Part shown: piece after piece, positions 10,668-16,119 of the stretch
How the letters are laid out: every line of letters starts with the position of its first letter
Numbering within the stretch: position 1 is the stretch's first letter
Source: Candidatus Thermodiscus eudorianus
GTDB taxonomy: Archaea > Thermoproteota > Thermoprotei_A > Sulfolobales > Acidilobaceae
Direction: 5' to 3'
Assembly (NCBI GenBank): GCA_015521085.1
Contig: WAOW01000004.1
Span: 124,001 to 188,000, forward strand
Length of the DNA stretch: 64,000 bases
Position numbers and translations under genes: made by a program
The notes under the pieces: generated by a model
Database searches by the model: none
The model's input: the letters and a program-made list of their open reading frames with translations, nothing else
What the model was told of the DNA's origin: nothing

Positions 10668-10889
10668 TTGTCAAAGGTCATACGTGTGAGATATGAGAAG
10701 GGAGTACTAAGGCTTCTTGAGCCTCTAAGGCTCAAGGAGGGCGAGGAGGCTCAAATAGTCATACAGCAGAGTGAATCTGTAGCCAAGAAGTTCTATGGCA
10801 TCGCTAGGAGGCACAGGCCAGATCTCGGGAGGGAGGAGTTCATAAGGGTTCTAGAGGAGGTAGAGGATGAGGGTCTTCGTGGACACTAG
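10668..10889 (+). CDS. DUF104 (AF2212-like) antitoxin 1
   Basis: A 73-residue protein whose first half (MSKVIRVRYEKGVLRLLEPLRLKEGEE) is the typical DUF104 antitoxin strand-rich core; the C-terminal half should wrap the toxin. The start is TTG. The gene overlaps the PIN gene downstream by 23 bp, the usual antitoxin-then-toxin order. It is closely related to the antitoxins at 12941 and 13956, pointing to recent duplication. Such antitoxins usually repress their own promoter. Confidence 0.85.
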   Translation: MSKVIRVRYEKGVLRLLEPLRLKEGEEAQIVIQQSESVAKKFYGIARRHRPDLGREEFIRVLEEVEDEGLRGH

Positions 10890-11091
10890 TATCATACTAG
10901 CATTCCTCGCAGGCCAGGACGATAGAGCACTAGAAATCATTAGGGGAGTCGAGAGGCGCGAGATAACCGGCTATATCAACCCCCTGGTGATTGACGAGGC
11001 CATCTACGAGTATCTGCGTTTAGCCACTGGGCTAAGCGCTAGGAGGATAAGGGAAGCTGCTAGCAAGGGCTCTTATCTGGAGTTACACTAA
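10867..11091 (+). pseudogene. Truncated PIN-domain (VapC-like) toxin 1
   Basis: Only 74 residues remain of a domain that normally has about 130-150. The first PIN aspartate (FVDTS, D5) and the conserved glutamate region (IDEAIYEYL) are present, but the C-terminal acidic residues are missing. Beyond the stop, another frame continues with residues resembling a PIN tail (TNKPVLEVLNNLY), so a frameshift followed by loss is likely. Ribonuclease activity is not expected. The antitoxin upstream is intact. Confidence 0.7.
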
Positions 11092-12634: not shown

Positions 12635-12675
12635 AAGTTATAATTTTATATAACAGAGATGTAAAATTATAACTT
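12635..12675. repeat. Perfect 14-bp AT-rich inverted repeat
   Basis: Arms AAGTTATAATTTTA (12635-12648) and its exact complement (12662-12675) flank a 13-nt loop in the 557-bp gap between the membrane ORFs and antitoxin 2. It could form a stable hairpin or be the end of a small mobile element. The gap also holds two copies of TAAAAATGCAACA (12810-12822 and 12869-12881) and the tRNA fragment at 12726. Confidence 0.7.
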
Positions 12676-12725
12676 TTATGAGATATATTCTACGCCTAGC
12701 TTTGTGATGGTTTAGAGGGTATTTG

Positions 12726-12772
12726 TGGCGAGTCACCGCGAGTTTGAACTCAGGACCTCCAGCTCCGCAGAC
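12726..12772 (-). pseudogene. tRNA-Arg-like 3' half (possible att remnant 1)
   Basis: Read on the minus strand this starts in the anticodon arm, with a loop CTGCGGA that would hold anticodon GCG. It continues through a variable loop and a degenerate T arm (GAG-TTCAAA-CTC) and ends with CCA. No 5' half precedes it. The truncation point and the CCA end are those expected of an attachment-site copy left by a tRNA-targeting integrase. Antitoxin 2 starts about 170 bp to its right. Confidence 0.5.
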
Positions 12773-12940
12773 CTATGCAATAAATACTTACGCTTGAACG
12801 GTTTCACGGTAAAAATGCAACATCTACTTCAGCATGATAAGCTAATCAGAGATTCATACCTGCCCTGATAAAAATGCAACACCACAGGAGTAAAGGCTTA
12901 GAGTCCCTATTAGCCATATTAGGGATAGGGAGAAGGGAGG

Positions 12941-13144
12941 TTGTCTAAAGTTATCAGAGCCAGGTATGAGAAGGGTGTGCTCAAACCCTTGGAGCCTTTA
13001 GAGCTTCGGGAAGGCGAGGAGGTCAGGATCCAAGTACTGCCTGAGGAGTTCCCGGAGCTGGTGGATAAGGTTAGCGTAGAGGCTAGCGGGGATGTTGACA
13101 AGATTCTTAGGGAGGCTCGTGAGCGTTGGAAGAGGTGGTATTAG
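12941..13144 (+). CDS. DUF104 (AF2212-like) antitoxin 2
   Basis: A 67-residue antitoxin starting with TTG; its core (MSKVIRARYEKGVLKPLEPLELREGEE) is almost the same as in antitoxins 1 and 3. The C-terminal half is acidic and helical (residues 35-67) and should bind the PIN partner. It overlaps the toxin gene by 19 bp. Just upstream (about 12902-12930) is an imperfect inverted repeat built on TCCCTA/TAGGGA that could be its operator. Confidence 0.87.
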   Translation: MSKVIRARYEKGVLKPLEPLELREGEEVRIQVLPEEFPELVDKVSVEASGDVDKILREARERWKRWY

Positions 13145-13608
13145 ACTCTAGTGTCCTAGTCAAAAGCATCCTGAGGCCAGGCCGTTGGCTATCCGAGGAA
13201 GTCTATAGTAGAGAGCTGGAAACACATCATAAGGCGAGAATCCTTGTGAAGGCACTTAAATCGAGTGATACAATCGTTCTCATCCCGTATCCAGTGATAG
13301 TAGAGGTCGCCGCGGTTACATCAAGACTTGCGGGCAAAGAATTAGCGGAAAAGGTAGTTGAATCACTTAAAACAACCAAGAACTATATTATCGTATACGA
13401 AGAGGAGTACAGGGATGAAGCATTGAAGGTCGCCCTACAGACGGGCTCCTCGGGCTTTGACGCTTACATTATAGCTCTAGCCTGGGATCGTGACGCCCTC
13501 CTCATTACTGACGATGAGCCTATGAGCAAGCATGCAGAAACACTGGGAGTGAGAGTAGTCCTACTACGCAACACAAACGTCGAAGATATAACGAAACAGC
13601 TCCATTAA
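13126..13608 (+). CDS. PIN-domain (VapC-like) toxin 2, full length
   Basis: A 160-residue PIN ribonuclease, the only complete toxin of the three loci. The acidic residues expected for metal binding are present: D8 (LDSSVLV), a glutamate in VIVEVAAV near residue 57, D111 (GFDAYIIA), and DD near residue 125 (LLITDDE). The start is TTG 13126 or GTG 13135. It should cleave RNA, often tRNA or rRNA in this family, when the antitoxin is lost. The gene lies between two tRNA-Arg-like 3' halves. Confidence 0.87.
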   Translation: MEEVVLDSSVLVKSILRPGRWLSEEVYSRELETHHKARILVKALKSSDTIVLIPYPVIVEVAAVTSRLAGKELAEKVVESLKTTKNYIIVYEEEYRDEALKVALQTGSSGFDAYIIALAWDRDALLITDDEPMSKHAETLGVRVVLLRNTNVEDITKQLH

Positions 13609-13745
13609 ATAAGCGGATTATTACATTAATTATAATTTACTTATGCAGACAAGATGATCGAACCTGCGAAGAGCCCGGCTGAGATTAACGGTCGCGACTG
13701 CCGACACGTTTCCTGCATGAACCAGCGATGACTCAAGGGGATTCG

Positions 13746-13799
13746 TGGCAGGCCCACCGAGATTAGTCGACCCGGACCTCCGGCTCTGAAGGCCGAGGA
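13746..13799 (-). pseudogene. tRNA-Arg-like 3' half (possible att remnant 2)
   Basis: On the minus strand this has a complete anticodon stem-loop (loop CTTCAGA), a variable loop AGGTC, a T stem with an unusual 9-nt loop TCGACTAAT, an acceptor 3' strand and CCA. The 5' half is missing. The odd T loop is shared with the longer copy at 14728 (TCCGCTAAT), linking the two. The anticodon position reads UCA, probably a decayed arginine UCG. Antitoxin 3 starts about 155 bp to the right. Confidence 0.55.
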
Positions 13800-13955
13800 T
13801 ATAGAAACAAAGTTTTTAGTAAAAACCATCAATTGGAAACAAGTTTCAGGGATGATTATCCTTAGGGATATAATTGATGATAATCCGGAAACATTCAAGC
13901 CTTGCGGGAAAGGCTAATTGCTCTGAAGAGTATTACTTAGGGGTGGGGCTGGGAC

Positions 13956-14156
13956 GTGTCCAAGGTCATTAGAGTAAGATATGAAAGAGGTGTGCTGAAG
14001 CCTTTAGAGCCGGTGGAACTCCAGGAAGGAGAGGAGCTAGTAGTCTTCATACGCAAGCACAGAGTAAGCGAAGTGCTCGATAAATATGTTGGGTTATTCG
14101 GTAAGGCTTCCGTAGAAGAGCTCAGGGGGTATGAGGAGGAGGCTCAAGCACAGTGA
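13956..14156 (+). CDS. DUF104 (AF2212-like) antitoxin 3
   Basis: A 66-residue antitoxin starting with GTG. The core MSKVIRVRYERGVLKPLEPVELQEGEEL matches antitoxins 1 and 2. The gene overlaps the toxin ORF by 4 bp. The 340-bp gap upstream contains tRNA fragment 2 and a near-direct repeat GATGATTATCC / GATGATAATCC (about 13850 and 13876). The antitoxin looks intact although its toxin is split. Confidence 0.85.
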   Translation: MSKVIRVRYERGVLKPLEPVELQEGEELVVFIRKHRVSEVLDKYVGLFGKASVEELRGYEEEAQAQ

Positions 14157-14607
14157 ATAAAACCTTCATAGACACCAACATATTCTACAACACACTATTC
14201 GAGACCAGCCTCACACGCAAAGCCCGAAAGCTGCTGGAGGATTACGAAGAAAACAAGTTCTATACTAGCCTAACAGTGATAAACGAATTACTCTACATAT
14301 CCACAAGGAAATACTACAAGGCCACTGAAGAACTCAAGGGACCGTACAGCCTAAGAAAACTAATATAGTGAACAAGGGATACCCAAAATTCATAGTCGAC
14401 GGTATAAGGAATTTGCTGGAAGACCTTGAGGTAGAAGTCCTAGTAGAAAACGTGGAATACCGAGACATGATAGAGACCGCTAGCCAACTAAAACTCCTGC
14501 CAAGCGATGCAATCATAGCCCTAACATGTAAACGCAATAACATAGACACGATCATAACCTTCGATGAAGACTTTAAGAGGATCCCCTGGCTAAAAGTTGT
14601 GCCCTAG
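14153..14607 (+). pseudogene. PIN-domain (VapC-like) toxin 3, split by a frameshift
   Basis: Two consecutive ORFs in different frames (14153-14368 and 14368-14607) together make about 149 residues, a normal PIN length. The first holds the N-terminal aspartate (FIDTN) and glutamate (VINELLY). The second holds the remaining acidic residues (LPSDAII, DTIITFDEDF). A single -1 shift between about 14329 and 14368 would restore one protein. All catalytic acids survive, so inactivation is recent, or the break is a sequencing error. Confidence 0.75.
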
Positions 14608-14727
14608 TCTGTTAAGATTATCTGCTGAGATTATCAGCGATGAAGCTAGAACCATCCTAGTTCTTGTAACTAGAAGCCACGGCCTTGCCTTGGAGAAAGG
14701 GAAAGACTTATATAGCGGGTATTTAAG

Positions 14728-14809
14728 TGGTGGGCCCGCCGGGATTAGCGGACCCGGAGGGACCCCACGGCTCCGGAGGCCGGCGCTCTGTCGGTTGAGC
14801 TATGGGTCC
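14728..14809 (-). tRNA. tRNA-Arg(CCG)-like gene, possibly degenerate
   Basis: An 82-nt cloverleaf-like sequence with encoded CCA on the minus strand. The D stem is GCTC/GAGC, the anticodon stem CCGGC/GCCGT with loop CTCCGGA (anticodon CCG), and the T stem CCGGG/CCCGG. Oddities: two A-C mismatches in the acceptor (GGACCCA against CGGGCCC), A instead of G at position 19, a 9-nt T loop TCCGCTAAT, and an enlarged variable region GGGGTCCCT containing part of the dispersed GGGWCCC motif. Several differences from a standard arginine tRNA are G-to-A. It may be a decaying copy rather than a working tRNA. Confidence 0.5.
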
Positions 14810-14904: not shown

Positions 14905-16119
14905 TTGACGACTTATAGGGTTGAGGAGATTGATAGGGGCTTCTATGTCTTGAGGGTTAACGATAGGTATACTAGGTTCTTTGAGTCTCTTTGGGAGATA
15001 CCGGAGGGGATAACGTATAACGCGTATCTGCTGGTCACGGGTGAGGGGGCTGTCTTATTCGATGGATGGAAGAAGACGTATGCGGGCCTGTTCATAGATG
15101 CGTTGTCTCAGGTCATTGATGCTGGCGATTTGAAGTATGTGGTCGTGGACCACATGGAGCCTGACCATTCGGGTAGCCTAGAGGAGGTGGCTCGCTGGGC
15201 GCCCCATGCCAGGATCCTGGGCCACCCGATGGCTGGTAGGATGATGAAGGCGTATCCGAGGGCTATGAATAACTTCAAGCCTGTCAAGGATGGTGAGGTC
15301 CTTGAAGTCGGCGGCGAGAGGATAAGGTTCATACACACGCCATGGCTGCACTGGCCGGAGACCATGATGTCGTGGCTGGAGGACCGGAGGATTCTCGTGA
15401 CGTGCGACGCCTTCGGGGGATACGGTATACCATACGGGCTCTTCGACGACGAGTGTACCAGGTGGGAGGAGGCGTTGAGGGCCATGCAGAAGTACGTTGT
15501 AACGGTCATAGGCCACTATAGGGACTGGATCACGAGGAACCTGGAGAAGCTGGCCAGCCTCGACATCCACCCTAGACTGATAGCCCCGGCCCACGGGCTC
15601 ATATGGAGGAGCAACCCCGAGAAGGTCATCTCGGTCTACAGGGATCTGGCCCTAGCCAAGCCGCGCAAGGGGAAGATCCTCATAGTCTCAGCCTCGATGT
15701 ACGGGACGGTGGAGACCCTCATAAGGAGGATAACCTGCAACCTGACGAGGAACGGCTACTACCCGGTGACCTACAGCTTCACAGACTCGACGAGGCCCAA
15801 CGTCTCAGACATACTGACCGATGCCGTGGACTCGGAGGCAATAGTAGTGGCGGCCCCGACCTACGAGGCCGACATATTCCCCCTGATAAGGTATGTTGTA
15901 GAGGAGATATGCTGGAAGGTTGGTGACGGCAAGAAGATCGTGATAGTGTCGAGCTACGGATGGGGTAGCATGGCGGCTAGGAACCTCAAGAAGATCTTCG
16001 ACAAGTGCAAGTATAGCGTGGTGGAGTCCATAGAGTACAACTCGGTGGGCCCCAACGCTATAACGGTAGAGGAGGCCGAGGAGATTAGTAGGAGGATTGT
16101 GGAGTCGCTCCGTGGATAG
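14905..16119 (+). CDS. Flavodiiron protein (A-type flavoprotein, FprA family)
   Basis: Cytoplasmic enzyme of about 404 residues that reduces O2 or NO using FMN and a diiron centre. The N-terminal metallo-beta-lactamase-like domain shows the iron ligands in DHMEPDHSG (HxExDH, about residues 83-88), a histidine in FIHTPWLHW, and TCDAFGG. The C-terminal flavodoxin domain begins near residue 257 with ILIVSASMYGTVETL as the FMN phosphate loop. I chose TTG 14905, which follows a purine-rich GGCGGGGG; the frame extends to GTG 14851 but without family similarity. Likely role: oxygen detoxification in an anaerobe or microaerophile. Confidence 0.9.
   Translation: MTTYRVEEIDRGFYVLRVNDRYTRFFESLWEIPEGITYNAYLLVTGEGAVLFDGWKKTYAGLFIDALSQVIDAGDLKYVVVDHMEPDHSGSLEEVARWAPHARILGHPMAGRMMKAYPRAMNNFKPVKDGEVLEVGGERIRFIHTPWLHWPETMMSWLEDRRILVTCDAFGGYGIPYGLFDDECTRWEEALRAMQKYVVTVIGHYRDWITRNLEKLASLDIHPRLIAPAHGLIWRSNPEKVISVYRDLALAKPRKGKILIVSASMYGTVETLIRRITCNLTRNGYYPVTYSFTDSTRPNVSDILTDAVDSEAIVVAAPTYEADIFPLIRYVVEEICWKVGDGKKIVIVSSYGWGSMAARNLKKIFDKCKYSVVESIEYNSVGPNAITVEEAEEISRRIVESLRG

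Follow-up and report, generated by a model that had tools for sequence, protein, structure and literature searches.

Toxin–antitoxin cassettes behind tRNA-Arg genes of hyperthermophilic archaea: a probable array of non-autonomous integrative elements

The window, that is, the whole 64,000-nucleotide stretch of Candidatus Thermodiscus eudorianus DNA analysed here, contains at 12.7–14.8 kb a degenerate tRNA-Arg(CCG) and, to its left, two units of ~1 kb that each carry one toxin–antitoxin (TA) pair. We regard this arrangement as probably a short array of non-autonomous integrative cassettes moved in trans by a tyrosine integrase, most likely one with a PF16795 domain. Such a cassette would comprise ~0.95 kb, namely a right end (RE), one TA pair, a left end (LE) with an inverted repeat and one tRNA-Arg 3′ half, the last of these acting as its attachment site.

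The array of the window and of its source genome

Three tRNA-Arg-like sequences lie on the minus strand exactly where a first-pass annotation, made from the sequence alone, had placed them, and only the rightmost is full length, as it had also stated. This anchor (14728–14809, CCA at 14728–14730) has a CCG anticodon and scores 29.7 bits with the Rfam tRNA model over 14731–14809 (cut-off 29, E 0.0015). Its D-loop lacks GG, the acceptor stem has two mismatches, the variable loop contains extra bases and the T-loop is aberrant; because of this degeneracy it was missed by both ARAGORN and a fast gathering scan. It was aligned with the intact tRNA-Arg of locus L096. In G002, a genome of the same genus, the flavoprotein gene that neighbours the anchor in the window (14905–16119) has no detected tRNA-Arg beside it; the nearby MAGs are incomplete.

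Directly behind the tRNA CCA lies the RE of unit 1 (14690–14727, minus strand), recognised by its likeness to the flank that separates tRNA-Arg from the integrase gene in L092 (26/36 identical positions; the 3′ flanks of the genome's other tRNAs, used as a null, reach at most 15/36, with a mean of 10.1). The predicted PIN toxin gene of this unit (14153–14607, plus strand) is split by a frameshift near 14368 into 14153–14368 and 14368–14607, both pieces matching Pfam PIN, with a 2-nt excess relative to its intact homolog at L096:7372–7824. It is accompanied by a gene for a predicted AF2212-like (DUF104, PF01954) antitoxin (13956–14156, plus strand; Pfam E 5e-22). The LE of unit 1 (13796–13855, minus strand), of class A and recognised by LE comparison and by covariance model R1, has an inverted repeat of the type GTTTCCA...TGGAAAC at about 13808–13841, its second arm being mutated; R1 gives 66.9 bits at 13781–13847, a sequence that belonged to its training set. 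A tRNA-Arg 3′ half, aligned from anticodon stem to CCA (13746–13795, minus strand), closes the unit.

Unit 2 repeats this order: an RE identified by RE comparison (13684–13745, minus strand), an open gene for a predicted PIN toxin of 160 aa (13126–13608, plus strand; Pfam PIN E 3e-9), a predicted AF2212-like antitoxin gene (12941–13144, plus strand; E 6e-17), a class B LE (12775–12832, minus strand) and an aligned tRNA-Arg 3′ half with a GCG-type anticodon loop (12726–12774, minus strand), which likewise runs from the anticodon stem to CCA. The LE has an inverted repeat of the type TGTTGCA...TGCAACA with a decayed second arm and, being absent from the training set, matches R1 with 26.0 bits (E 2.4e-4 for the 64-kb window). 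The PIN protein encoded at 13126–13608 also resembles RNA-free RNase P structures, though weakly (E 0.001). Each interval thus holds one PF01954/PIN pair according to Pfam, which bears out the earlier count of exactly one pair per interval, the right-hand toxin being frameshifted. In both pairs the genes lie on the strand opposite to the tRNA and are adjacent or overlapping, an arrangement of the VapBC-like type II TA kind.

Since RE-like sequence appears once more to the left of 12726 (12665–12725, minus strand; similar to the other REs by eye), a third, decayed unit probably followed there; a search left of it for an LE or a half found neither. An extra AF2212-like gene and a truncated PIN gene lie left of the array at 10668–11091, with no tRNA half nearby, and are possibly the cargo of this decayed unit.

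The source genome (1.52-Mb assembly, 10 contigs, 95% complete), whose tRNAs and cassettes were sampled by targeted retrieval of regions, contains a pristine copy of the same design: tRNA-Arg(GCG) at C2:54040–54114, one AF2212/PIN pair and, 965 bp away, a perfect 49-bp repeat of the tRNA 3′ half. This copy, together with recurrence in dozens of relatives, shows that the arrangement is not due to chance. Other tRNA-Arg genes located in the genome are TCG, CCT and TCT. The end of contig C8, with the TCG gene, overlaps the head of contig C3, which gives the order tRNA-Arg(TCG), PIN/AF2212, LE+half, and contig C6 starts with a further array of five LE+half units. Loss of tRNA-Arg(CCG) from this genome was considered and is not claimed, because C6 begins inside an array with CCG halves and an intact copy may sit in the gap before it. 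At C6:254393–266988 (L043, L297) the source genome also has an intact tRNA-Leu(GAG) and, 12.5 kb on, a tRNA-Leu(GAG) 3′ half beside a PF16795 integrase gene; this is an ordinary integrated element.

Conserved ends, distribution and cargo

Alignment of distal halves revealed upstream of each a conserved stretch of ~60 nt, the LE, containing a stem, a TATA-like stretch and an inverted repeat of ~29 nt at a fixed position. The classes of this repeat covary between arms (GTTTCCA/TGGAAAC, GTTGCA/TGCAAC, GTCCCA/TGGGAC), and its left arm mostly lies at −44/−45 from the half. Arms of 6 or more were present in 64% of the 166 LEs outside the training loci, compared with 6% of shuffles. The repeat is found whatever the TA family or orientation of the cassette (e.g., L097), and a similar one (TGTCCCA...TGGGACA, as in class C LEs) precedes the integrase genes discussed below; it is hence a feature of the element and not of a TA promoter. 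The RE, the sequence following CCA, is related among units. Many distal halves are degenerate, and many units may therefore be dead; a T-loop-specific decay, striking by eye, received no support from the position profile. The anticodon of the distal half often differs from that of the preceding tRNA (L108, L124, L117 and the window; e.g., a TCG half behind a CCG tRNA), which suggests that 3′ halves may be exchanged among isoacceptors.

A covariance model built on LE+half matched 48 of the 147 genomes surveyed in the order; with a stricter threshold, a survey of the phylum gave matches in 20 of 398 genomes, 16 of them within the order. The relatives include Desulfurococcales MAGs labelled Acidilobaceae, Pyrodictiaceae, Ca. 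Tiamatella and others. Arrays are often seen, the largest consisting of seven ~1 kb units that follow a single intact tRNA-Arg (L284), and one complete genome carries arrays at three tRNA-Arg genes (L279–L281). In relatives, one intact tRNA-Arg is followed by 3′ halves, contrary to the first-pass annotation's own refuting condition of intact tRNAs at each position. For 185 unique LE+half sequences, the nearest upstream anchor within 4 kb was a tRNA-Arg in 44 cases, another half in 75, a tRNA-Thr in one and an intron-containing tRNA-Arg miscalled Phe in one more; 49 were near a locus edge and 15 lacked an anchor within 4 kb. At L347:7020–8280 the same architecture is found with tRNA-Thr(TGT): an AF2212/PIN pair follows, and then a 3′ half of tRNA-Thr that has an inverted repeat of its own; the system is therefore not limited to tRNA-Arg.

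The cassettes (n = 115 after deduplication) have a median length of 961 bp, with 57% falling within 800–1100 bp, although some units are larger (2–3.4 kb) and carry other genes. TA-family genes occur in 102/115, and their types are mutually unrelated: AF2212/PIN, UPF0175/DUF3368, DUF433/DUF5615 and HEPN/MNT. By sample, the TA share was 38/47 for cassettes found by LE alone and 22/24 for those found via tRNA genes or in the source genome itself. The remaining cargo includes further PIN proteins, a MazF/PemK toxin, Csx1 CARF, PaREP1 and an aspartyl protease with a DUF5678 protein. Each cassette is a two-gene operon, with the TA pair usually antisense to the tRNA, and none encodes a recognised integrase. 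Two complete genomes have 5/7 and 5/6 of their AF2212-like genes inside arrays. In a sample of GTDB genomes chosen by PIN genes first, which partly coincides with the genomes in which the element was discovered, LE+half lay within 1.5 kb of 51/79 loci.

Movement of cassettes and the candidate integrase

End-to-end nucleotide identity of cassettes between genera is 83–90%, against 66–75% for a core gene, and cassettes common to genera occupy different tRNA genes and array positions. One unit of the window is 85.4% identical over 1075 bp, from the tRNA to the end of the half, to one that another genus carries at tRNA-Arg(TCG), with unrelated flanks outside. Within one genus, genomes G091 and G016 agree at 95.7% of positions along the 4.7 kb that end with the CCA of tRNA-Arg(TCG); beyond it their cassettes differ. 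At tRNA-Arg(GCG) one of the two has extra DNA between the tRNA and a shared cassette, which is where new insertions entering beside the tRNA would place it, although no half closing this segment was found. Judging by these comparisons, cassettes move between genomes and tRNA genes. The first-pass proposal that elements integrated successively at a tRNA gene, leaving a 3′ half every time and bringing a minimal TA pair as cargo, is hence upheld by the conserved ends, by whole-cassette homology between unrelated loci and by the turnover of cassettes at orthologous tRNA genes, where the breakpoints fall at the tRNA 3′ end.

The same annotation had no integrase in view; this holds for the window but not for relatives, where a candidate occupies the equivalent place. 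Locus L093 encodes a 434-aa tyrosine integrase (HTH + PF16795) 85 bp behind an intact tRNA-Arg; homologs 65–70% identical to it are found in the same place at L092, L099 and L303, and an integrase gene also follows tRNA-Arg at L324. Overall, PF16795 integrase genes sit 80–190 bp behind tRNA-Arg or behind LE+half. The order tRNA, TA cassette, LE+half, integrase remnant is present at L209 and L330/L334, LE+half followed by an integrase pseudogene at L323/L333, and tRNA-Arg, integrase and then cassettes at L349. More distant members lie behind tRNA-Gly, -Ser and -Thr. The genomes with the longest arrays (G016, G017, G091 and G011) and the window's own genome have no close homolog of the candidate, and LE matches and the candidate occur together in 15 genomes, where chance alone would give about 12.4; many arrays may thus be orphans or rely on visiting elements. 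Viral contigs, phages and plasmids were scanned, and no record contained the integrase or the class A LE pattern. Since no cassette encodes an integrase and such enzymes are located at equivalent tRNA-Arg sites with related RE and inverted repeats, we infer that mobilisation in trans by a PF16795 integrase of this kind is the best explanation.

The recombinase would then be an SSV-type enzyme, most likely the PF16795 integrase kept behind tRNA-Arg in other genomes. A circular cassette (LE–half–RE) would recombine with the anticodon-stem-loop region of the tRNA gene; in the window and in relatives the halves start at the anticodon stem, and the core of SSV-type targets includes the anticodon stem-loop. 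The tRNA would gain the 3′ half of the cassette and remain whole, the old half being displaced to the far side. With repeated insertion, new cassettes would come to lie beside the tRNA and the array would lengthen, the TA cargo presumably stabilising it against loss.

Alternatively, the units may be relics of full-size tRNA-targeting elements with their own integrases, which integrated repeatedly and lost everything except the attachment sites and a self-protecting TA pair. In bacteria, cis-mobilisable elements are known to accrete at tRNA genes (PMC5704250), the source genome has its ordinary PF16795 element at tRNA-Leu(GAG), and the units of 2–3.4 kb with other genes would suit such decay. 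Nevertheless, we consider this origin unlikely: unit size is uniform, both ends are conserved, and the same small unit recurs over its full length in several genera and behind different tRNA genes, so it is the small unit itself that travels. The mover could also be the housekeeping recombinase XerA, or another unrelated recombinase, instead of a PF16795 integrase. Elements exploiting Xer are known, the source genome has one PF00589 recombinase (on a contig other than that of the window), and arrays exist without the candidate integrase. However, G011 has at least three occupied tRNA-Arg genes and no PF00589 match, and the core, like that used by SSV-type integrases (PMC8371274), lies in a tRNA gene, making this option rather improbable. 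Tandem duplication or gene conversion of a tRNA-TA region, with no site-specific element involved, would account for the AF2212/PIN theme common to units but is already contradicted by neighbouring units with unrelated TA families and by LE classes that differ within one array, so its probability is very small. Finally, split and intron-rich tRNAs do occur in this part of the archaea, and the stem and TATA-like stretch of the LE could hint that the 3′ halves belong to split tRNA genes whose pieces are expressed apart and then joined, the inverted repeat having a role in RNA processing. The likelihood of this reading is close to negligible, given that intact tRNA-Arg genes exist, that many of the halves have degenerated and that the search showed no separate 5′ halves accompanied by matching leaders.

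Relation to known systems and further cargo

The trans-mobilised cassettes proposed here resemble integrons, including archaeal ones and chromosomal TA cassette arrays, in that small mobile cassettes are arrayed behind a fixed site, each with its own site containing inverted repeats; TA genes are common cargo (10.5% of annotated proteins in archaeal integrons), the integrase platform is apart from the cassettes, and many arrays are without integrase (PMC9668308). Unlike in integrons, the target is a tRNA gene rather than attI, the cargo consists nearly entirely of TA genes, in a two-gene operon per cassette that is usually antisense to the tRNA, and the cassette site consists of a tRNA 3′ half and the inverted repeat upstream of it rather than of attC. 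An integron attC (GTTRRRY/RYYYAAC) was ruled out: there is no GTTRRRY box, and the LE arms GTTTCCA/TGGAAAC, GTTGCA/TGCAAC and GTCCCA/TGGGAC are followed by the tRNA half. Membership in IntI was likewise ruled out, as the candidate enzyme belongs to PF16795, with an HTH, and not to PF00589.

CIMEs, described as decayed larger elements, and accretion at tRNA genes (PMC5704250) share with the arrays the attachment-site flanks, here target-derived direct repeats, the lack of an internal integrase and tandem stacking at the tRNA 3′ end. The units studied here differ in being ~1 kb long with conserved ends, intact across genera and assembled in arrays of up to seven. By analogy, the arrangement may be likened to a cross of CIME accretion and integron TA arrays. 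SSV-type and other archaeal tRNA-targeting elements (PMC8371274, PMC6563490) have in common with it a tyrosine integrase, a tRNA target and a duplicated 3′ half, the overlap region of IntSSV1 being the anticodon loop; yet the cassettes are far smaller, have neither integrase nor replication gene, and the candidate integrase, which carries an N-terminal HTH, is encoded by an undivided gene behind the tRNA. In Sulfolobus, PIN toxins of VapBC-type loci are also enriched in variable regions, where tRNA genes are integration targets, but these loci are linked to IS remnants, and no tRNA-half cassettes are described (PMC3718332). The literature available to us, which comprised few subscription papers, contained no description of such arrays.

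We tentatively propose, as a broader reading that falls somewhat short of even confidence, an independently arisen integron-like cassette system of hyperthermophilic archaea, with a tRNA-Arg insertion site, a cassette site formed by the 3′ half and upstream inverted repeat, a PF16795 platform enzyme beside the tRNA, TA or defence cassettes and sister systems for other tRNAs (tRNA-Thr having been seen once). If true, it would explain the spread of TA modules in archaea, where known vehicles are few, and would represent a second, independent solution to building cassette arrays. It would also bear on tRNA evolution, because a working tRNA gene should receive a new 3′ half with each insertion.

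The conserved ends make cassettes easy to find, and uncharacterised gene pairs within them are therefore candidate TA or defence modules. Recurrent cassettes at L279, L117 and L189 combine a retropepsin-like aspartyl protease with a DUF5678 protein; by position, the two are candidates for an uncharacterised TA or defence pair. Homologous cassettes at L288 and L245 contain a PaREP1-family protein with an uncharacterised 185-aa partner, and at about 8.8–10.9 kb of L284 a ~2 kb cassette lying between LE+half sites encodes a Csx1 CARF-domain protein, a type III CRISPR accessory.
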